NCBI RefSeq assembly: GCF_026965535.1
Contig: NZ_CP114039.1
Span: 1,984,001-2,048,000 of the forward strand
Direction of reading: 5' to 3'
Length of the DNA stretch: 64,000 bases
Source of the DNA: Corallococcus sp. NCRR
GTDB taxonomy: Bacteria; Myxococcota; Myxococcia; Myxococcales; Myxococcaceae
Shown here piece after piece: positions 51,555-59,879 of this stretch; position 1 is the first letter of the stretch; every line of letters begins with the position of its first letter. Both the position numbers and the translations under genes were made by a program. Under the pieces are notes generated by a model. It had not been told where the DNA came from and ran no database searches. It saw only the letters and a list, made by a program, of their open reading frames with translations.

Positions 51555-53069
51555 ATGCACCGCCGAATCCTCACTGCCCTCCTCACGCTGTCCGTCGCCG
51601 GCTGCGCCACCACGAAGCCCGCGGAGACGCCGGCTGAAACGGCGCCGGCCGCGCAACCTCAAACCCAGACACCGGCTCCGGACGCGGAGGCGTTCCGCGA
51701 ACAGCAGCCCAAGCCCGGCAAGCCGCCGGACATCGTGCTGCCCACGTTCGAGCAGGCGAAGCTGGACAACGGCCTCACCGTCATCGTCAGCACGCGCAAG
51801 GAATTGCCGCTGGTGTTCGTGGGCATCGCCTTCGCCGCGGGCGTGGCGCAGGAGCCCGCCGCGAAGCTGGGCATCGCGGACCTGTCCTACCGCATGCTGT
51901 TGGAGGGCGCGGGCAAGCGCGACACGGTGGCGCTGGACAACGCGTTCGCGGACCTGGGCGTGTCGCCCGCGCTGTCGGTGGACCCGGACGGCGCCTTCGT
52001 GGGCGCGCGCGTGCTCACGACCAACGTGGACGCGGCGATGAGCCTGCTGTCGGACGTCGTCCTGCGGCCCACCTTCGACGCCAAGGCCTTCGAGCGGCGC
52101 AAGAAGCAGCACCTGGGTGAGCTGGTGCGCCGCATGGGCGACCCGAACTTCCTGGCGCAGGAGGCCTACTACGAGGCCGTGTTCGGCGCGGACCACCCCT
52201 ACGGCCACACGTCCGGCGGCACGCCGAGGACGGTGGAGTCGCTCACGCTGGCGGACGCGAAGAACTTCTACACGAAGAACACGGGGCCTCGCGCCGCCGC
52301 GCTCATCATGACGGGCGACGTGACGCTCCAGCAGGCGGTGGAGTGGGGGAAGAAGTACTTCGGCGGGTGGAAGGGCGGGGCCGTGGCGCCCAAGCCGCCG
52401 CCCGCGCCGCCCGCGCCTCCGCGTCAGCAGGTGCGCGTGGTGGCCAAGCCGGGCCTGGAGCAGACGGTGGTGCTGGTGGGCCGTCCCGGCCTCGCCGCGG
52501 GCCACCCGGACGAATACCCGCTGGAGCTGGCGACCACGGTGTTCGGCGGCTTCTTCGGCAGCCGGCTCAACATGAACATCCGCGAGGACAAGGGCTACAG
52601 CTACGGCGCCAACGCGCACCTGGGCACGCGCCTGGGCGTGGGGCCGCTCACCGCGTACGCGGCCGTGCGGCAGGACGTCACGGGCCCGGCGCTCAACGAG
52701 TTCATCAAGGAGCTGGCCGGCATCAAGTCCAACCCCATCACGGAGAAGGAGCTGGCCGCCGCGCGCGAAGGCCTCATCCGCGCGTTCCCCGGCGCCTTCG
52801 AGACGGTGGAGGGCCTGGGCGGCAGCGCCGCGCAGCTCTACTTCCACCGCCGGCCCATGGATGAGTTCAAGCGCACCGTGGAGGGCCTGGAGAACGCCAG
52901 CGCCGCGGAGGTGCAGCGCGTGGCCGAGTCCTACCTGGACCCGGCCAACATGCAGGTGGTGCTCGTGGGCGACCCGCTGGTCATCCAGGAGCAGGTGACG
53001 CCGCTCAACCTGGGCAAGCTCACGCTGGTGGAGACGGCGTCGTCGGACAAGGCGCCTGCGTCCAAGTAG
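51555..53069 (+). CDS. M16-family non-catalytic partner, lipoprotein
   Basis: 504 residues. Lipobox VAGCA and a Pro/Ala/Thr spacer, then an M16 fold in which the HxxEH site is replaced by ADLSYRMLLEGAG, so no zinc is bound. The glycine-rich loop and C-terminal features are kept (FGGFFGSRLNMNIREDKGYSYGANAHLG). It would complete the substrate chamber for the preceding catalytic subunit and, as a lipoprotein, tether the complex to a membrane. Confidence 0.92.
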   Translation: MHRRILTALLTLSVAGCATTKPAETPAETAPAAQPQTQTPAPDAEAFREQQPKPGKPPDIVLPTFEQAKLDNGLTVIVSTRKELPLVFVGIAFAAGVAQEPAAKLGIADLSYRMLLEGAGKRDTVALDNAFADLGVSPALSVDPDGAFVGARVLTTNVDAAMSLLSDVVLRPTFDAKAFERRKKQHLGELVRRMGDPNFLAQEAYYEAVFGADHPYGHTSGGTPRTVESLTLADAKNFYTKNTGPRAAALIMTGDVTLQQAVEWGKKYFGGWKGGAVAPKPPPAPPAPPRQQVRVVAKPGLEQTVVLVGRPGLAAGHPDEYPLELATTVFGGFFGSRLNMNIREDKGYSYGANAHLGTRLGVGPLTAYAAVRQDVTGPALNEFIKELAGIKSNPITEKELAAAREGLIRAFPGAFETVEGLGGSAAQLYFHRRPMDEFKRTVEGLENASAAEVQRVAESYLDPANMQVVLVGDPLVIQEQVTPLNLGKLTLVETASSDKAPASK

Positions 53070-53097
53070 CGAAGCGCTCCACTTCGAGGTGTGGAAG

Positions 53098-53136
53098 CCG
53101 GGGTCCCGACGTGGGTGTCGGGGCCCCGGTTTTTTT
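53098..53136. terminator. Strong intrinsic terminator
   Basis: CCGGGGTCCCGAC (53098-53110) and GTCGGGGCCCCGG (53117-53129) form a near-perfect 13-bp stem with a 6-nt loop, then seven T's. It ends the M16 operon and faces the end of the convergent acidic-protein gene. Confidence 0.93.
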
Positions 53137-53417
53137 CATTCCCGGGTGGGCTCGTTCTCTTCCTGGCGGGCCTCGGCCTTGAGGCGGCCGCGCTCCTCGC
53201 GCTCCTCGTCGTCGATGTCGTCCATGACGCTCTGGGGGTTGTTGCGGGGTCCGCCAACGGGGCCGTCGCTGTCGAGGGCGAACTTCTGCTCCTCGGTGGA
53301 GTGCTTGGCGTCGTCCGCGTACAGGGGCTTGGTGTCGTCCGCCTCCAACCCCCGCTCCACGCGGTCCTTGGCGAAGCCAGGCTTGTGGGCGGTGTCGCTC
53401 TTCTTGCGGGTGGCCAT
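53136..53417 (-). CDS. Small acidic, hydrophilic protein
   Basis: 93 residues from the ATG at 53417 after CCGGAGCAACCC. Composition is strongly charged and disorder-like: MATRKKSDTAHKPGFAKDRV then ERGLEADDTKPLYADDAKHS and a tail rich in D/E/R. No hydrophobic core, signal or known domain. Possibly a stress or nucleic-acid-associated protein, but that is a guess from composition only. Confidence 0.65.
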   Translation of the reverse strand: MATRKKSDTAHKPGFAKDRVERGLEADDTKPLYADDAKHSTEEQKFALDSDGPVGGPRNNPQSVMDDIDDEEREERGRLKAEARQEENEPTRE

Positions 53418-53564
53418 GGGTTGCTCCGGAAGGTGGTGGGACAGCTCACACACGCTCAATGTCGGCAGCCCAGGCCGCGAGCACCACGATGGGGACCGTG
53501 GAGCGGGGGATTGGTTGCCTGCCCCCTGACCCTGGCGCGCGGAAGCGGCTAGGATGGGGACTCC

Positions 53565-53696
53565 ATGGTCGGACGCAGCGGGAACAGCCAGCGGCACGAG
53601 GGGACGACGTCCTCCGTGGGCGCGCGCGTGCGGACCGTGATGACCGAGACTTGCACTCGCACCGGCCTGACTCCTCGCGGAGCGCGGACCGCCTGA
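53565..53696 (+). CDS. Threonine-rich leader peptide of the thr attenuator
   Basis: 43 codons from the ATG at 53565 (GGGGA upstream), or 18 from the in-frame ATG at 53640. The last part reads MTETCTRTGLTPRGARTA: six threonines in 18 codons, nine in the longer form. It stops 44 bp before a perfect intrinsic terminator that precedes the aspartokinase-homoserine dehydrogenase gene. This is the arrangement of thrL: ribosome stalling at Thr codons when charged tRNA-Thr is scarce would prevent the terminator from forming. No Ile codons are present. Confidence 0.8.
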   Translation: MVGRSGNSQRHEGTTSSVGARVRTVMTETCTRTGLTPRGARTA

Positions 53697-53706
53697 CTTC
53701 CGAAGT

Positions 53707-53723
53707 GGACCTCCAGAAGGTCC
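53707..53723 (+). promoter_or_regulatory. Candidate pause/antiterminator hairpin
   Basis: GGACCT (53707-53712) pairs with AGGTCC (53718-53723) across a 5-nt loop, between the leader stop codon and the terminator. An alternative pairing GAAGG/CCTTC (53716-53730) competes with it, as attenuators need. Confidence 0.5.
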
Positions 53724-53739
53724 CTCCTTCCGAACCCGG

Positions 53740-53770
53740 CCCCGCGCTCCTCCCGAGCGCGGGGCTTTTT
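53740..53770 (+). terminator. Attenuator terminator upstream of thrA
   Basis: CCCCGCGCTC (53740-53749), loop CTCCC, GAGCGCGGGG (53755-53764), then CTTTTT. A perfect 10-bp GC-rich stem with a T-run, yet 105 bp before a start codon rather than after a gene, which marks it as regulatory. Confidence 0.9.
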
Positions 53771-53874
53771 CGTTGCCCCACCTGCCAGTCGCCAACCCCG
53801 AGGACCCGCATGACGCCGCTTCCGATGTGCCTCCCCAGCCACCGAGTCCCGCCGCTCCGGAAGGAGGCCGTGTC

Positions 53875-56334
53875 ATGCGCGTGATGAAATTCGGTGGCAC
53901 CAGTGTCGGAGATGCGGAACGGATGCGTGGCGTGGTGGCGCGGGTGGAGGAGGCGCGCAAGGCCGAGCGGGTGATGGTGGTGGCGTCCGCGGTGTCGGGC
54001 ATCACGAACCTGTTGGTGGAGGCGGCGAGGGTGGCGGAGGAGGGCGAGTCCGTGCAGGAGGCCTGCGCCCGGTTCGACGACACGCACTCCGCCATCGCGA
54101 AGGCGCTGAGCGTGGAGGACCTGAAGCCCGCGCAGACCCGGCCGCTGGCGGAGGGCCTGGTGGCGCTGGGCGTCGAGCTGCGAGGGCTGTTGCAGGGCGT
54201 GGGGTTGCTGCGGGAGTGCTCGCCGTCCGTGCTGGCGCACCTGTCGGGGCTGGGGGAGCGGGCGTCGTGCCTGCTGCTCGCGGCGCTGATGGAGGCGCGG
54301 GGATTGGCGCCCGTGAGCGTGGACCCGAGGCAGGTGCTGCTGTGCTCGGGAGACCCGCTCCAGGCGACGCCGAAGGCGGAGGAGATCCGCGCGCGGTTCG
54401 CGCCGCTGCGTGAGGCCGGACCGGGGCTGATGTTGATGCCGGGCTTCTTCGGTGGGGATGCGCGCGGCAAGACGATGTCGCTGGGGCGGGGAGGGTCGGA
54501 CTACTCGGCGGCGCTGGCGGCGGCGGCGCTGGATGCGCGGCTGTTGGAGATCTGGACGGACGTGGACGGCATCTTCAGCGCGGACCCGAGGCTGGTGCCG
54601 GAGGCGTTCGCGCTGGAGGAGGTGAGCTTCGAGGAGGCGATGGAGCTGGCCTACTTCGGCGCGAAGGTGCTGCATCCGAAGACGATCGCCCCCGCGAGGG
54701 AGCGGGGCATCCCCGTGCGGGTGTGCAACAGCTTCCGTCCGGAGCACCCGGGCACGCGGGTGACGGCCACGGCGCCGGCCTCACGGCACCCGGTGCGCGG
54801 GTTGTCATTCCTGCCGGACATCGCGCTCATCAACATCGCGGGCGCGGGGTTGAAGGGCGTGCCGGGCACGGCCGCGCGCGTCTTCGAGGCGATGGCGATG
54901 GCGTCCATCTCCGTGGTGTTGATCACGCAGGGCTCGAGCGAGTCCTCCATCAGCTTCTGCGTGGGGGAGGCGGAGGCCCGGCGGGCGGTGCTGGAGCTGG
55001 AGGACGCGTTCGAGGTGGAGCGCGAGGCGGGGAAGGTGGACCCCATCGAGCACCAGCCGGGGCTCGCGGTGTTGAGCATCGTGGGAGACGGGATGCGGCA
55101 CCGGGTGGGCGTGGCGGGGACGTTCTTCAGCGCGCTGGCGGACGTGGATTGCAGCATCGCGGCCATCGCGCAGGGGTCGAGTGAGCGCAGCATCTCCGCG
55201 GTGATTTCTCGCGAGGACGGCCCGCGAGCGATGGCGCATGTGCACCGCAAGGCCTTTGGCACCACGGAGGTGGTGGAGCTGCTGGTGGCGGGCGTGGGCA
55301 CGGTGGGCGGGGAGTTGCTGCGGCAGATTCATCAGCAGGCGCCGAAGCTGCGGGCGCATGGATTGGATTTGCGGGTGTGTGCCATTGCCAATAGCAGACA
55401 CAGCCTGGTGGCGCCGGAGGGCGTGGCGCTGGAGGGGTGGAAGGCGCGGCTGGATGCGAGTGAGTCTGGGTTCACGCTGGACACGTTCCGGGCGTGGGCG
55501 AAGGCGAGGCGGCCGGGCCGGCCCATCTTCGTGGACTGCACGAGCAGCGAGGACGTGGCGCTGGGGTATCCCGCGTTGATGTCCTCCGGGCTGCACGTGG
55601 TGACGGCGAACAAGAAGGCCAATGCGGGACGGCAGGAGCACTGGAAGGCGCTGCGGGAGACAGCGGCGCGGCACCAGCGGAGGTTCCTCTACGAGACGAA
55701 CGTGGGGGCAGGGCTGCCGGTCATCGACACGTTGAAGAACATGCTGCGCACGGGCGACACGGTGCACCGGGTGGAGGGCATCCTGTCGGGTTCGCTGTCT
55801 TTCATCCTGGGACTGACGGAGGCCGGGGTGCCGCTGTCGAAGGCGGTGGGCACGGCGATGGAGAAGGGCTTCACGGAGCCGGATCCGCGAGACGACCTGG
55901 AGGGCACGGACGTGGCGCGCAAGGTGCTCATCCTCGCGCGAGAGCTGGGGCGGTCGCTGGAGTTGGAGGAGGTGGCGCTGGCGTCGCTGTTGCCGGAGGA
56001 GTTCGACGCGAAGGGACCGCTGCCGGAGTTCCTGGCGCGGCTGCCGCAGGCGGATGAGATCTTCCAGAGGCGGGTGGACGCTCACCGGAAGGAAGGCAAG
56101 GTGCTGCGCTACGTGGGCAGCGTGGGGCCGGAGGGCGTGCGCGTGGGCCTGGTGCCGGTGCCGCTGGAGCATCCGCTGGCGGCGGTGAAGGGCGGAGAGA
56201 ACGCGCTGAGCTTCCTGTCCGAGCGCTACAGCCCCACGCCGCTGGTGATTCGAGGGTACGGCGCGGGCGCGGCGGTGACGGCGGCGGGAGTGCTCGCGGA
56301 TGTATTGCGATTGGTGGAGGGGCCGTTGCCCTGA
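53875..56334 (+). CDS. thrA: Bifunctional aspartokinase/homoserine dehydrogenase
   Basis: 819 residues, the length of E. coli ThrA, from an ATG with AAGGAGG 7 bp upstream. Aspartokinase domain 1-290 with KFGGTSVGDAERM (5-17), LGRGGSDYSAALAAAAL and WTDVDGIFSADPRLV; ACT domains about 315-460 (SVVLITQGSSESSISFCV, SIAAIAQGSSERSISAVI); homoserine dehydrogenase 465-815 with GVGTVGGELL, VVTANKKANA, YETNVGAGLPVIDTLKNML and GTDVARKVLILARELG. It catalyses steps 1 and 3 from aspartate to threonine/methionine. An attenuator precedes it. No thrB or thrC follows; a toxin gene starts 24 bp later. Confidence 0.96.
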   Translation: MRVMKFGGTSVGDAERMRGVVARVEEARKAERVMVVASAVSGITNLLVEAARVAEEGESVQEACARFDDTHSAIAKALSVEDLKPAQTRPLAEGLVALGVELRGLLQGVGLLRECSPSVLAHLSGLGERASCLLLAALMEARGLAPVSVDPRQVLLCSGDPLQATPKAEEIRARFAPLREAGPGLMLMPGFFGGDARGKTMSLGRGGSDYSAALAAAALDARLLEIWTDVDGIFSADPRLVPEAFALEEVSFEEAMELAYFGAKVLHPKTIAPARERGIPVRVCNSFRPEHPGTRVTATAPASRHPVRGLSFLPDIALINIAGAGLKGVPGTAARVFEAMAMASISVVLITQGSSESSISFCVGEAEARRAVLELEDAFEVEREAGKVDPIEHQPGLAVLSIVGDGMRHRVGVAGTFFSALADVDCSIAAIAQGSSERSISAVISREDGPRAMAHVHRKAFGTTEVVELLVAGVGTVGGELLRQIHQQAPKLRAHGLDLRVCAIANSRHSLVAPEGVALEGWKARLDASESGFTLDTFRAWAKARRPGRPIFVDCTSSEDVALGYPALMSSGLHVVTANKKANAGRQEHWKALRETAARHQRRFLYETNVGAGLPVIDTLKNMLRTGDTVHRVEGILSGSLSFILGLTEAGVPLSKAVGTAMEKGFTEPDPRDDLEGTDVARKVLILARELGRSLELEEVALASLLPEEFDAKGPLPEFLARLPQADEIFQRRVDAHRKEGKVLRYVGSVGPEGVRVGLVPVPLEHPLAAVKGGENALSFLSERYSPTPLVIRGYGAGAAVTAAGVLADVLRLVEGPLP

Positions 56335-56345
56335 GCGTGGGTGTT

Positions 56346-56372
56346 AGGCTTTTCCGCCATGAGGAAAAGCCT
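56346..56372 (+). promoter_or_regulatory. Perfect hairpin enclosing the start codon, copy 1
   Basis: AGGCTTTTCC (56346-56355), loop GCCATGA with the ATG, GGAAAAGCCT (56363-56372). In the mRNA the start codon would sit in the loop of a 10-bp stem, and no Shine-Dalgarno is visible. The same structure occurs in the second copy. Confidence 0.75.
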
Positions 56373-57009
56373 GACGTTCCTGGCCCTGACGCTATGGATG
56401 GCGGCGTGCGCGTCCAGCACGCCGCTCCAGCAGAGATGGGACGAAGCCGAAGCGGAGTGCGGTGACGCAAGCAGCGACGTCTGTGTGACCCTGGTCTGCG
56501 GGGACACGGCCTGCGGCTTCTTCCGGTGCGAGGACGTGCCCGGAGAGGTAGTGTTGGCGCGGGGTCTGCCGCCCCGGCCGCCACCTGTGGCTCCCGCGCC
56601 GGGGAGCGGCCCCCGGCGCAACTGGGGCGGCAGCATGGGCCTGCCGGGTGATGCCGAACCGGTGATGGTGTTCCCCTGGCACGGGACCCCCAGGCCCGCG
56701 CCTCCTCAGCGGCAGTTACCGGCGGGCAAGTTCGAGAAGCACCACATCTTCCCTCAGTCCCCAGACCTTGCCGCGTGGTTCAAAATCAAGGGCATCGACA
56801 TCCACCAGTACACCATCCCCATCCCCATCCCCGTGCACGTCCATCGGCGCATCCACAGCGATGGTCCCAGCGGAGGCTTGTGGAACAAGGCCTGGCGTGA
56901 GTTCAGGGATACGAACGGAGGCGCTCCTCCAGTGGAAATCTTCAAGCACGCCGGTGAGCTGATCTATCGCTTCCAACTCTTGGGTGGTCCCATCCAGCGG
57001 TACAACTGA
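56359..57009 (+). CDS. SitA6-type polymorphic toxin lipoprotein, copy 1
   Basis: 216 residues. Lipobox MAACA (cysteine 17), then a cysteine-bearing conserved part (ECGDASSDVCVTLVCGDTACGFFRCEDVPGEVVLARG), a proline-rich linker (about 69-120) and a C-terminal HNH-like/nuclease-type region GKFEKHHIFPQSPDLAAWFKIKGIDIHQYTIPIPIPVHVHRRIHSDGPSGGLWNKAWREF. This is the architecture of the myxobacterial TIGR02269/SitA6 lipoproteins, exchanged by outer-membrane fusion and lethal to non-kin. It starts only 24 bp after thrA and is followed by its immunity gene 29 bp later. Confidence 0.85.
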   Translation: MRKSLTFLALTLWMAACASSTPLQQRWDEAEAECGDASSDVCVTLVCGDTACGFFRCEDVPGEVVLARGLPPRPPPVAPAPGSGPRRNWGGSMGLPGDAEPVMVFPWHGTPRPAPPQRQLPAGKFEKHHIFPQSPDLAAWFKIKGIDIHQYTIPIPIPVHVHRRIHSDGPSGGLWNKAWREFRDTNGGAPPVEIFKHAGELIYRFQLLGGPIQRYN

Positions 57010-57038
57010 GCCCTCACTCATCTGAGGCCTGACGGTTC

Positions 57039-57767
57039 ATGCCCTCCTTCTTCTGGCTCCGCGACGATGAAGCAGCCACATCCCGTTACAGCGGGGACTT
57101 CGATGCCGCGCACAAATGGATCCTGCCCGGCATCAAGGATTGCCCTGGATGCGGCGTAACTTCGGCTGGATGGGGACGTCAGTACCCCGCCGTGGACCTT
57201 TCACTCATCCCCGAGCATCGGGAATTCGAGGAGCCCCGAGCCGAGCCGTTTCATGAGTTCGTCCGCCTCAGGGACCTGGTGCGCCCGCTGGTGCCACCGG
57301 ATGCATCGCTTCCTCCCGGAACAAGCTTCGGTCCGCTCACGGGCACCGCGTCCGGTCAGTTTGGACCGTTCACCTGGCAGGGGACCTCGCTGATGCTCAT
57401 CCGCCGCGATGCGCTCGACGGTCTCCAGGCCGCGGGCATCCGCGGGCTGCTGGGCTGCAAGACGGAGCTGCGGTTCCGGCAGAAGACGCCACCGGACATC
57501 CTCGAACTCCAAATCGAACCGCGCGGCCTGCTGCACCGGGACTGCCTTCCTCCCGACCTGGAACCGCCCTGTCCCACGTGCGGACGACAAGGATTCCGCC
57601 GTCCGGACGACCCCATCCTCGACGGTGCTTCGCTGCCCACGGACAGGGACCTGTTCCGCTTGGACAACTTCAGCACCATGATCATCGGCACGGACCGCTT
57701 CAAGGACGCGGTGGAGCAGGGCGGTTGGACTGGCATCTCCTTCCGTGAGCTCCCCGTGCGTTCTTGA
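57039..57767 (+). CDS. SitI6-type double-CXXCG immunity protein, copy 1
   Basis: 242 residues. Two zinc-ribbon-like motifs, CPGCG (about 33-37) and CPTCG (about 185-189), define the double-CXXCG family found next to SitA6 toxins in Myxococcus. Shared blocks with copy 2 include YPAVDLS, EFEEPR.EP.HE, LPPGTSFGPL, LQAAGIRGLLGCKTELRFRQKTPP and the ending TDRFKDAVEQGGWTGISFRELPVR. Predicted to neutralise the preceding toxin in the cytoplasm. No signal peptide. Confidence 0.85.
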   Translation: MPSFFWLRDDEAATSRYSGDFDAAHKWILPGIKDCPGCGVTSAGWGRQYPAVDLSLIPEHREFEEPRAEPFHEFVRLRDLVRPLVPPDASLPPGTSFGPLTGTASGQFGPFTWQGTSLMLIRRDALDGLQAAGIRGLLGCKTELRFRQKTPPDILELQIEPRGLLHRDCLPPDLEPPCPTCGRQGFRRPDDPILDGASLPTDRDLFRLDNFSTMIIGTDRFKDAVEQGGWTGISFRELPVRS

Positions 57768-57775
57768 AGTCCCTG

Positions 57776-58372
57776 TCACTTGATGGCGCGGACCGCCTTG
57801 TCCGTGGCCTTCAGGTCGAACGCTTCCGGGTCGAAGGAACCGCCGACCCACTCCAGTCGTTCTTCGTGATCTTCGTGATTCGGATCTCGAAGTGCCTCGA
57901 GCAAGTCTTCGTAGCCAGGAACACCGCCGCAGTCGTCGGGCGGAGCAGCACGTGCTCCCGCGGTACAGATGGGGTAGCGCTTGCCAACCTCAGGTGGCTG
58001 CACCTTCTTGACGCGGATGCGGTGCACCCAGTCGTCACCGAAGTCGTAGATGTAGCCAAAGACACTGCGAGCCCGCGGGCCGAGGTCCGCGACGGTGTAC
58101 TCGCGTTCATCCAATAGCGGTGGACCGCCCAAGCTGAAGTCATCCGCATCTCCCTTGGCCCGATGCCCGTACTTTTGCCGTGAGCTGTCCTCGAACATGT
58201 GCATGTGGCTGTTGGTCCAGCCGAAGGCTGCTTGCAGGATGCCGTGCAACTTCGAGAGCGGCGTGTCACTTCGAACATGAAGCTCTCGCCAGATGGCGGG
58301 GGCGATCTCCATCAACTCGACGTGCAGCACGTGAATCGATGGCTCGGAGGTCGTCTTCTTTCGGGTGGCCAT
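57776..58372 (-). CDS. Plasmid pRiA4b ORF-3 family protein
   Basis: 198 residues from the ATG at 58372. Family hallmarks: IHVLHVELMEIAPAIWRELHVRSDTPLSKLHGILQAAFGWTNSHMHMFEDSSRQKYG, SVFGYIYDFGDDWVHRIRVKK and the C-terminal PICTAGARAAPPDDCGGVPGYEDLLEALRDPNHEDHEERLEWVG. The family (PF07929) is often linked with transposons, plasmids and mobile islands; its function is unsettled. It lies antisense between the two toxin/immunity pairs, which fits a mobile or recombination-derived cassette. Confidence 0.9.
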   Translation of the reverse strand: MATRKKTTSEPSIHVLHVELMEIAPAIWRELHVRSDTPLSKLHGILQAAFGWTNSHMHMFEDSSRQKYGHRAKGDADDFSLGGPPLLDEREYTVADLGPRARSVFGYIYDFGDDWVHRIRVKKVQPPEVGKRYPICTAGARAAPPDDCGGVPGYEDLLEALRDPNHEDHEERLEWVGGSFDPEAFDLKATDKAVRAIK

Positions 58373-58462
58373 GAATGGAAACCTCGTATTTGCCCCCGCC
58401 ATGAAGAGAAATCGTCCCAACGATGGATGGAATGGATCGCGTTGATAATGACACGGTCGATT

Positions 58463-58489
58463 AGGCTTTTCCGCCATGAGGAAAAGCCT
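58463..58489 (+). promoter_or_regulatory. Perfect hairpin enclosing the start codon, copy 2
   Basis: AGGCTTTTCC (58463-58472), loop GCCATGA, GGAAAAGCCT (58480-58489); identical to copy 1. The identity with copy 1 begins at TTAGGC, only two bases upstream of the left arm. Confidence 0.75.
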
Positions 58490-59126
58490 GACGTTCCTGG
58501 CCCTGACGCTATGGATGGCGGCGTGCGCGTCCAGCACGCCGCTCCAGCAGCGTTGGGACGAAGCCGAAGCAGAGTGCGGTGACGCAAGCAGCGACGTCTG
58601 TGTGACCCTGGTCTGCGGGGACACGGCCTGCGGCTTCTTCCGGTGCGAGGACGTGCCCGGAGAAGTGGTGCTGGCCCGGGGTCTGCCGCCCCGGCCGCCA
58701 CCCGTGGCCGTGGCCCCTGCGCCAGGAAGCGGGCCCCGGCGCAATTGGGGCGCAGATATGGGCCTGCCGGGTGATGCGGAACCCGTCATGGTGTTCCCGT
58801 GGTACGGGAACCCCAAGCCCGTGCCTCCTCAGCGGCAGTTGCCAGCGGGCAAGTTCGAGAAGCACCACATCTTCCCTCAAGCACGGGACCTTGCCGCGTG
58901 GTTCAAGCTCAAGGGCATTGACATCCACCAGTACACGATCCCCATCCCCGTGCACGTCCACCGGCGCATTCACAGCAATGGGCCCAGCGGAGGCATGTGG
59001 AATGAAGCCTGGCGCGAGTTCCGGAGGGCGAATGAAAACGTCAAGCCTCCTGAGATCTTCAAGCATGCGGGAGAACTCATCTACCGCTTCCAACTTATGG
59101 GCGGGCCCATCGAGAAGTACAACTGA
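58476..59126 (+). CDS. SitA6-type polymorphic toxin lipoprotein, copy 2
   Basis: 216 residues. The first 76 residues equal those of copy 1 exactly; differences then appear (a 2-residue insertion in the Pro-rich linker, IPIPVH in place of IPIPIPVH, WNEAWREFRRANENVKPPE near the end). The HNH-like HHIFPQ...HQYTIPIP..VHRRIH core is kept. Such a pattern (conserved export part, diverging nuclease part) suits a polymorphic toxin that needs a distinct immunity partner. Immunity gene follows after 27 bp. Confidence 0.85.
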   Translation: MRKSLTFLALTLWMAACASSTPLQQRWDEAEAECGDASSDVCVTLVCGDTACGFFRCEDVPGEVVLARGLPPRPPPVAVAPAPGSGPRRNWGADMGLPGDAEPVMVFPWYGNPKPVPPQRQLPAGKFEKHHIFPQARDLAAWFKLKGIDIHQYTIPIPVHVHRRIHSNGPSGGMWNEAWREFRRANENVKPPEIFKHAGELIYRFQLMGGPIEKYN

Positions 59127-59153
59127 CCCGATCTCGTGCGAGGACCGAACTCC

Positions 59154-59879
59154 ATGACCCGTTACTTCGCTCTACGCCGCGACAAGGCGGTCTACCCGCT
59201 CTACAACGGTAGTACCGATTGCGCTCATAGGTGGGGGCTGCCCGGCCTCAAGGACTGTCCAGGCTGCGGCGCCACATGGTCGAGTTGGGGACACCAATAC
59301 CCTGCTGTGGATCTGTCGGATCTTCCAGAGCAGGGAGAGTTCGAAGAACCCCGGCCCGAACCCCTCCACGAGCTCGCCCGCCTTCGCGAACTGGTACGCC
59401 CCCTGGCCCCTCCAGGTGCACCACTGCCACCCGGCACGTCCTTCGGTCCATTGGTGGGTACCGCGACGGGTAGGTTCGCGTCCTTCTCAGGGCTCGAAAG
59501 CTGTTGGATCCTCCTGCGCCGTGACGCCTTCGACAGTCTCCAGGCCGCGGGCATCCGAGGCCTTCTCGGCTGCAAGACGGAACTGCGGTTCCGTCAGAAG
59601 ACACCTCCAGAGGTCCTTGAGCTCCAGCTCGAACTGCGCGGCCGGATGCACCGCGACTGCCTTCCTCCCGACCTGGAACCGCCCTGTCCCACCTGTGGTC
59701 GCGTAGGCCTTCGCCTCCCGGAGGACCTCATCCTCGACGCTGCCTCCCTGCCCACGGACATCGACCTCTTCCGCCTGGGCGACTACGGCACCGTCCTCAT
59801 CGGCACGGACCGCTTCAAGGACGCGGTGGAGCAGGGCGGTTGGACCGGTATCTCCTTCCGGGAGCTCCCAGTCCGCTGA
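59154..59879 (+). CDS. SitI6-type double-CXXCG immunity protein, copy 2
   Basis: 241 residues from the ATG at 59154, chosen because MTRYFALRRDK aligns with the start of copy 1. CPGCG and CPTCG motifs are present. Identity with copy 1 is high in the core (LLGCKTELRFRQKTPP.VLELQ, HRDCLPPDLEPPCPTCGR) and lower in the first 60 residues and around residues 100-120, candidate specificity regions. Converges with the PhoD-like gene 5 bp away. Confidence 0.85.
   Translation: MTRYFALRRDKAVYPLYNGSTDCAHRWGLPGLKDCPGCGATWSSWGHQYPAVDLSDLPEQGEFEEPRPEPLHELARLRELVRPLAPPGAPLPPGTSFGPLVGTATGRFASFSGLESCWILLRRDAFDSLQAAGIRGLLGCKTELRFRQKTPPEVLELQLELRGRMHRDCLPPDLEPPCPTCGRVGLRLPEDLILDAASLPTDIDLFRLGDYGTVLIGTDRFKDAVEQGGWTGISFRELPVR

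Follow-up and report, generated by a model that had tools for sequence, protein, structure and literature searches.

Threonine attenuation is a textbook device of enterobacteria, in which the thrL leader has about 21 codons and encodes threonine and isoleucine. In the myxobacterium Corallococcus sp. NCRR, a short threonine-rich reading frame and a terminator precede an aspartokinase-homoserine dehydrogenase gene, raising the question of whether this gene is controlled by the same logic. We analysed a stretch of 64,000 nucleotides from this genome (contig NZ_CP114039.1, positions 1,984,001 to 2,048,000), hereafter the window, in which all coordinates are given. An earlier note, made from the letters of the window, had read the element as a threonine attenuator. 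The reading frame, its threonine codons, the terminator and the complementarity between two arms, B and C, are conserved in relatives and support that reading: the element is very probably a ribosome-mediated transcription attenuator setting thrA expression by threonine supply.

Layout of the locus and start of the leader

The features of the locus are the following.

53526-53531, forward strand: candidate -35-like element CTGACC, a consensus match from sequence reading and aligned position in relatives
53550-53555, forward strand: putative -10-like element TAGGAT, 18 nt past the -35-like element
53565-53696, forward strand: ORF1, the leader ORF, 43 codons, MVGRSGNSQRHEGTTSSVGARVRTVMTETCTRTGLTPRGARTA and a stop
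53634-53672, forward strand: threonine-sensing part of ORF1, from per-codon conservation
53634, 53643, 53649, 53655, 53661 and 53670, forward strand: Thr codons of the sensing part (Thr at 53634 kept in 9 of 14 leaders)
53679-53687, forward strand: arm B, GGAGCGCGG, within ORF1, predicted antiterminator 5' strand (folding, shuffle and alignment tests)
53698-53734, forward strand: spacer hairpin from the stop codon to arm C, including 53707-53730 (folding)
53738-53750, forward strand: arm C, terminator 5' strand, of which 53742-53750 is the predicted antiterminator 3' strand
53738-53770, forward strand: intrinsic terminator, stem and T-run (terminator scan; pairs kept in relatives)
53810-53884, forward strand: ORF2, 24 codons, MTPLPMCLPSHRVPPLRKEAVSCA and a stop, overlapping the thrA start codon
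53861-53867, forward strand: Shine-Dalgarno-like AAGGAGG of thrA, within ORF2 (sequence reading)
53875-56334, forward strand: thrA, bifunctional aspartokinase/homoserine dehydrogenase I (NF006959, E 1.2e-296; Pfam domains)

The NF006959 match bears out the earlier assignment of the downstream gene as thrA. The upstream region, taken before to be gene-free, holds a 94-codon minus-strand ORF at 53137-53418 for which Pfam and NCBIfam gave no match; the gap between it and ORF1 is 53419-53564. The N-terminal end of this ORF (MATRKK...) seemingly also lies beside the thrA leader of another locus, L142. Within the window no thrBC follows directly after thrA. Toxin-immunity genes come next: at 56341-59879 a SitA6-type toxin lipoprotein gene and a SitI6-type immunity gene form a tandem duplicate of two pairs.

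The short frame had first been described as carrying six threonines in its last 18 codons. These are present, from the ATG at 53640 to the TGA at 53694-53696 (MTETCTRTGLTPRGARTA), and the frame is open as described; the start that is kept in relatives is the ATG at 53565, which gives 43 codons.

The -35-like element begins 39 nt before this start codon, and transcription is predicted to start at about 53561-53565; by the stricter rule of the promoter scan there is no sigma-70 site in 53040-53900. Most Corallococcus have CTGACC, 18 nt, TAGGAT, 8-9 nt and ATG. Myxococcus and Pyxidicoccus have TTGACT, 18 nt, CAGCCT or a near form, about 7-8 nt and the start codon, with no purine-rich ribosome-binding stretch before the start. 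In all 41 leaders the distance from the first base of the -35-like element to the start codon is 37-40 nt, a figure that is not independent because start codons were chosen with a loose -35-like element required. Of the 15 Acidobacteriota leaders described below, 13 have TTGAC at 35-37 nt upstream of the start, starts with the element having been preferred; of the two others, L138 lacks it and the contig of L025 ends too early. The closeness of the -35-like element to the start of ORF1 suggests a leaderless mRNA.

Alternatively, ORF1 could be translated from a Shine-Dalgarno start within a longer 5' UTR, with the promoter farther upstream and the TTGAC match incidental. The AGGAT...GGGGA stretch before the ATG in Corallococcus and an AAAGG-like stretch about 7 nt before the start in Acidobacteriota would fit such an arrangement, as would the choice of start codons with a -35 match required or preferred. 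However, the Myxococcus start has no purine-rich stretch before it, and the TTGAC spacing recurs both in the 13 Acidobacteriota leaders and in 44 of 44 histidine leaders (TTGAC or TTGA at 35-38 nt, these starts being also element-required). We consider the longer 5' UTR unlikely and favor the leaderless message. A precedent exists in Sinorhizobium meliloti, in which the trpL attenuator RNA is reported to begin at the ATG of the leader ORF and thus to encode a leaderless leader peptide (PMC7298713). The two systems would share a leaderless leader-peptide attenuator, for the thr leader a prediction from promoter-like spacing; the S. meliloti system differs in sensing tryptophan, in its 14-aa peptide and in its phylum. 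For M. xanthus, a genome-wide map of start sites by Cappable-seq is reported (PMC8844925).

Threonine codons and competing helices

We read 42 leaders, 15 from Corallococcus and 27 from Myxococcus/Pyxidicoccus. ORF1 is intact in 41 of them, with a length of 41-48 codons, so that a short ORF rich in codons for the pathway product lies upstream of the biosynthetic gene in all but one. The exception, a Corallococcus leader (L087, genome G025), no longer has the frame or arm B and is short of two Thr codons. Within the last 22 codons, all 27 Myxococcus/Pyxidicoccus leaders have 8-13 threonines, arranged in runs, and the 14 intact Corallococcus leaders have 7-8, spaced and without a run. Counted from the stop, codons -8, -11, -13 and -15 are threonine in all 14 intact Corallococcus leaders and codon -17 in 13 of them, while the codons between them vary (Arg or Cys at -12; Cys, Arg or His at -14; Glu or Leu at -16). 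Over the whole ORF1 of Myxococcus/Pyxidicoccus, ACC, ACG and ACT are used 157, 147 and 42 times, a mixture indicating that the amino acid is kept rather than a DNA repeat. Loss of the Thr codons in relatives had been named in advance as an observation that would speak against an attenuator; in both groups threonine is retained as its neighbors drift. The position of the stop relative to arm B and the terminator, and the terminator itself, are likewise kept as the earlier note had anticipated, L087 excepted. Codons -1 to -5 of Corallococcus, mostly arm B, are nearly invariant at the level of bases.

The terminator with its T-run was found as described before. It reads CCCCGCGCTC-CTCCC-GAGCGCGGGG-CTTTTT, with a stem at 53738-53766 of 12 pairs when G-T is allowed, and places an intrinsic terminator between ORF1 and thrA. 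Terminator-like sites number three in 53040-53900 versus 0.6 expected from shuffles; two overlap at the leader terminator and one lies at 53117-53130. The leader from 53640 to 53773 folds better than its dinucleotide shuffles (z -2.76), 2 of 200 being as good.

Could the Corallococcus attenuator nevertheless be a decaying relic, its threonine run diluted, with no useful response to threonine and thrA transcribed by read-through? The sensing part of most Corallococcus leaders has five spaced Thr codons versus the runs in Myxococcus, one of the 15 leaders is broken, and another (L085, genome G022) has one mismatch in arm B. Against this, threonine is kept in the 14 intact leaders while the intervening codons change, and arms B, C and D are nearly invariant among intact leaders, which looks like selection and not decay. 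Known attenuators also work on few codons, trpL having two for tryptophan. We regard a relic as improbable and the threonine-responsive attenuator as the better account of the Corallococcus leaders.

Folding predicts a helix exclusive with the terminator, in which 53679-53687 pairs with 53742-53750; arm B consists of ORF1 codons -5 to -3 and is the reverse complement of 53742-53750. When the ribosome is placed in a stall on the Thr codons, the RNA from its edge to 53754 folds into this B:C helix around the spacer hairpin. For RNA extending to 53770, the minimum-energy fold is the terminator whatever ribosome position was tried. The antiterminator must therefore win by timing, with B:C formed before arm D, the partner of arm C in the terminator, is transcribed. 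Partial RNA without a ribosome also forms B:C, so that neither a protective hairpin nor default termination is predicted for an untranslated RNA.

The same behavior is predicted for the relatives, in a set of 40 leaders without L087 and L140. With the ribosome at codon -9 and arm C just made, each of the 40 joins its B region to its C region by 9-12 pairs; the footprint used trimmed three bases from the 5' end of B. A ribosome placed at the stop gives the terminator in all 40, B being hidden there by construction. The spacer holds at least four internal pairs in every one of the 40. By prediction, then, the exclusive antiterminator helix lies within reach of a terminating ribosome and out of reach of one stalled earlier.

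The earlier note had located the antiterminator choice in overlapping hairpins at 53707-53730. A hairpin is present there; it belongs to the spacer hairpin common to both predicted states, is clear of the terminator arms and folds alongside the terminator when the RNA is complete and alongside B:C when it is partial, and the spacer hairpin varies in sequence and length between species, all of which makes its role as the switch highly improbable. The predicted switch is the B:C helix. In the window this duplex is stronger than with shuffled B segments (z -3.6, 1 of 300). Among 37 leaders (L085 not included) the excess is strong in Corallococcus and some Myxococcus; for the M. xanthus group it is barely visible, with z of about -0.6 to -1.1, and in the broken L087 the duplex does no better than its shuffles. 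In an alignment of 36 sequences, antiterminator pairs are kept in 92.1% of cells, with one double-change cell and a covariation score reached by 494 of 500 shuffles, and terminator pairs in 97.6%, with no double changes; covariation is not demonstrable because arms B and C are nearly invariant.

We propose the following mechanism. A promoter just upstream would start the RNA at or a few bases from the ORF1 start, and ORF1 would be read as a leaderless message. When threonyl-tRNA is ample, the ribosome would reach the stop at 53694 and cover arm B; arm C would then pair with arm D, and RNA polymerase would halt near 53770. A shortage of threonyl-tRNA would stall the ribosome on the Thr codons and leave arm B outside the ribosomal footprint. 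Once arm C has emerged, and ahead of the synthesis of arm D, arm B would pair with it around the folded spacer hairpin, and this would pre-empt the terminator and let thrA be transcribed. Past the terminator, ORF2 would probably pass ribosomes to thrA by translational coupling.

The attenuator would work like thrL and lies outside the Rfam Thr_leader family. At the gathering threshold Rfam has no match in the window, and at E up to 10 the 11 sub-threshold matches in 53500-53900 do not include Thr_leader. With enterobacterial thrL it shares a leader peptide coding for threonine, an intrinsic terminator, predicted alternative pairing and a position before aspartokinase-homoserine dehydrogenase I. 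In contrast to thrL, the myxobacterial leader has 41-48 codons, no isoleucine in the last 22, a probably leaderless start and the additional ORF2, and its predicted antiterminator arm lies within the coding sequence and pairs directly with a terminator arm.

The second reading frame before thrA

In all 41 leaders that include the stretch between the terminator and thrA (15 from Corallococcus, among them the broken L087, and 26 from Myxococcus/Pyxidicoccus), an ATG opens a frame, ORF2, that closes at a stop overlapping the start of the thrA coding sequence, the frame having been selected beforehand. Conservation of MRVM at the start of ThrA in part dictates this overlapping stop. ORF2 starts at -59, -62, -65, -68, -71, -74 or -77, seven offsets in one frame; ATGs in other frames of this stretch occur once each in L086, L114 and L095-L101. 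A Shine-Dalgarno-like motif was recognized before ORF2 in 39 of the 41. The first 11 codons of ORF2 contain on average 3.0 threonines in Myxococcus/Pyxidicoccus and 1.5 in Corallococcus, the remainder almost none. The simple reading is that ORF2 would serve translational coupling to thrA; a second threonine sensor is possible. We also considered a hairpin that would hide the thrA Shine-Dalgarno and be opened by a ribosome stalled on ORF2, and rejected it: across 36 leaders the pairing partner varies by species and the change in accessibility is inconsistent.

Distribution of the leader and probable attenuators of other genes

ThrA of the window is 92-98% identical to that of the named Corallococcus loci. 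Across 96 family genomes, only Corallococcus (16 genomes including G000, the 9.79 Mb one-contig genome that holds the window; in G021 thrA was found only through the leader) and Myxococcus/Pyxidicoccus (27 genomes) have matches at about 78% identity or above. From 36 leaders we built a covariance model; run with stricter filters, it gave one strong match each in 42 of the 195 Myxococcota genomes searched, and these 42 belong without exception to the two thrA groups. Because 32 of the 36 model rows come from these same groups, the 42 matches are to some extent built in, and the telling result is that matches elsewhere are nearly absent. Of the 43 genomes only G024 gave no match, its thrA being truncated where the contig stops. 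L014 (BNCN01000014.1), titled Comamonas sp. KCTC 72670 and probably a mislabelled genome, also has thrA and leader of the Myxococcus type.

It is barely credible that we are dealing with the ordinary terminator of some small RNA or small-protein gene unrelated to thrA and placed before it by chance: termination would indeed let a free-standing leader RNA accumulate, and a trans-acting role is reported for rnTrpL of S. meliloti (PMC7298713), but the element precedes thrA wherever the contig permits a look, the other match in the 195 Myxococcota genomes is one weak second match in G023 (E 0.009), and the leader codons suit the gene they precede, as do those of thr leaders in a second phylum.

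Many other genomes carry a second form of aspartokinase-homoserine dehydrogenase (AK-HDH), about 35-45% identical. We examined upstream regions with a loose scan for Thr/Ile-rich ORFs. It flagged 9 of 9 gammaproteobacterial thrA upstreams, used as positive controls, and 4 of 24 upstreams in other phyla (L023, L043, L066 and L076), so that alone it proves little. The second Myxococcota form was rejected as an attenuated gene: 2 of 20 of its upstreams pass the loose scan and none has a threonine run.

Leaders on the same plan precede thrA at four loci, three from Holophagaceae and one from Acidobacteria (e.g. MRAAFIQSLPFVKNSFAARGVMAPQATTTTTITTIEARPV); three came from the loose scan, and L025, with 220 nt of upstream sequence, was read by eye. 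Run on the genomes of seven named loci, the covariance model found matches in these four and none in those of L020, L021 and L023; it also gave two additional matches, L138 and L139, described below. In 297 genomes of the phylum of one of the four loci it gave 12 matches in 11 genomes. Eight of the 12 precede AK-HDH genes, one being the L026 locus again; two precede ilvD, with leaders rich in Val, Leu and Ile; one, L150, precedes a DAHP synthase gene; and the match at L154 we took for chance. At a strict E cut, NCBIfam identified five of seven new AK-HDH fragments as AK-HDH I and both ilvD fragments as ilvD. L149 and L153 fall below this cut yet are placed in the AK-HDH tree.

In that tree of 44 proteins, thrA of the window groups with the Acidobacteriota genes and with gammaproteobacterial thrA (SH-aLRT 100), and the second Myxococcota form lies apart. 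A quick method and long branches limit finer claims. L020 and L021 fall inside the thrA group and have no leader by the loose scan within 500 nt. The shared plan and the shared group suggest that the attenuator tends to go with the gene lineage across phyla, the gammaproteobacterial genes of this clade also having leaders that the same scan flags. Threonine attenuation appears with its gene in Myxococcota and Acidobacteriota, seemingly leaderless and with a predicted antiterminator arm within the coding sequence.

The absence of Ile codons, remarked on earlier for the window, is general: 0 of 41 myxobacterial leaders have isoleucine in the last 22 codons, and 9 of 27 Myxococcus/Pyxidicoccus leaders have it nearer the N-terminus. 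ilvC is absent from 43 of 43 Corallococcus and Myxococcus/Pyxidicoccus genomes, in a search that was positive in 14 of 14 controls; M. xanthus is said to be a branched-chain auxotroph. Of 11 Acidobacteriota AK-HDH leaders, nine have isoleucine and nine have methionine in the last 22 codons, and ilvC is present in 10 of the 13 Acidobacteriota genomes searched. Leader codons may therefore follow the end products of the host pathway. This match is suggestive and not a rule because Acidobacteriota provide exceptions: the leaders of L145 (genome G485) and L148 (G254) have no isoleucine in the last 22 codons though ilvC is present, and L025 (G197) and L026 (G198) hold isoleucine though ilvC was not found in G197, G198 or G203, the completeness of which was not given.

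Our literature search found no paper on a myxobacterial thr attenuator, and attenuator surveys of proteobacteria may contain an earlier prediction; one such survey is reportedly that of Vitreschak et al., 2004. Classical attenuators beyond gammaproteobacteria, comparable to the present one, are reported as predictions for actinobacterial trp, ilv and cys leaders, and the same source reports no conserved RNA structure upstream of the threonine operons of Actinobacteria (PMC1262725).

Other amino-acid genes carry similar leaders. Upstream of hisG in G000, the same genome but outside the window (near C1:7557170, L172, reverse strand), a GTG...TAG ORF encodes MRSTSLHHHHAHHRPAHDGTVRRAHAWVTH, with TTGAC 36 nt before the start and a terminator before hisG. 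This upstream region has DNA matches in 70 of 96 family genomes, some covering part of the query. We read 44 of the 70 loci, comprising the 30 best and 14 others, 12 of these from further genera. A histidine-rich ORF of 27-31 codons is present in 44 of the 44 Myxococcaceae loci read, and the terminator pattern in 30 of the first 30, the set that was scored. That this leader recurs supports the view that leaderless attenuators are customary in these bacteria and not peculiar to thrA. By eye we recognized no Trp leader before the four trpE-like genes of G000, and leuA_bact has no match in that genome. The thrA and hisG leaders are ready, testable attenuators in M. xanthus.

In Acidobacteriota, the leaders before ilvD at L139 (Val/Ile), L147 and L151 have 41-45 codons, are rich in Val, Leu and Ile, and follow the same terminator plan. 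At L150 (G203:C58, reverse strand), a Tyr-Tyr...Phe leader, MRMMGSASATASYYDCFSPSIRGCGPPA, precedes a DAHP synthase gene, with TTGAC 35 nt before the start. A broader scheme can tentatively be drawn, though we would not expect it to hold in full: a leaderless 43-codon attenuator acting on transcription and a Thr-rich coupled ORF2 acting on thrA translation would give two-tier sensing, and amino-acid control by leaderless attenuators would be general in these phyla, covering thr and his as well as ilvD and DAHP synthase in Acidobacteriota. The same scaffold also occurs at L138 (G195:C170, reverse strand), where a Thr-rich leader precedes a LysR-type regulator gene.
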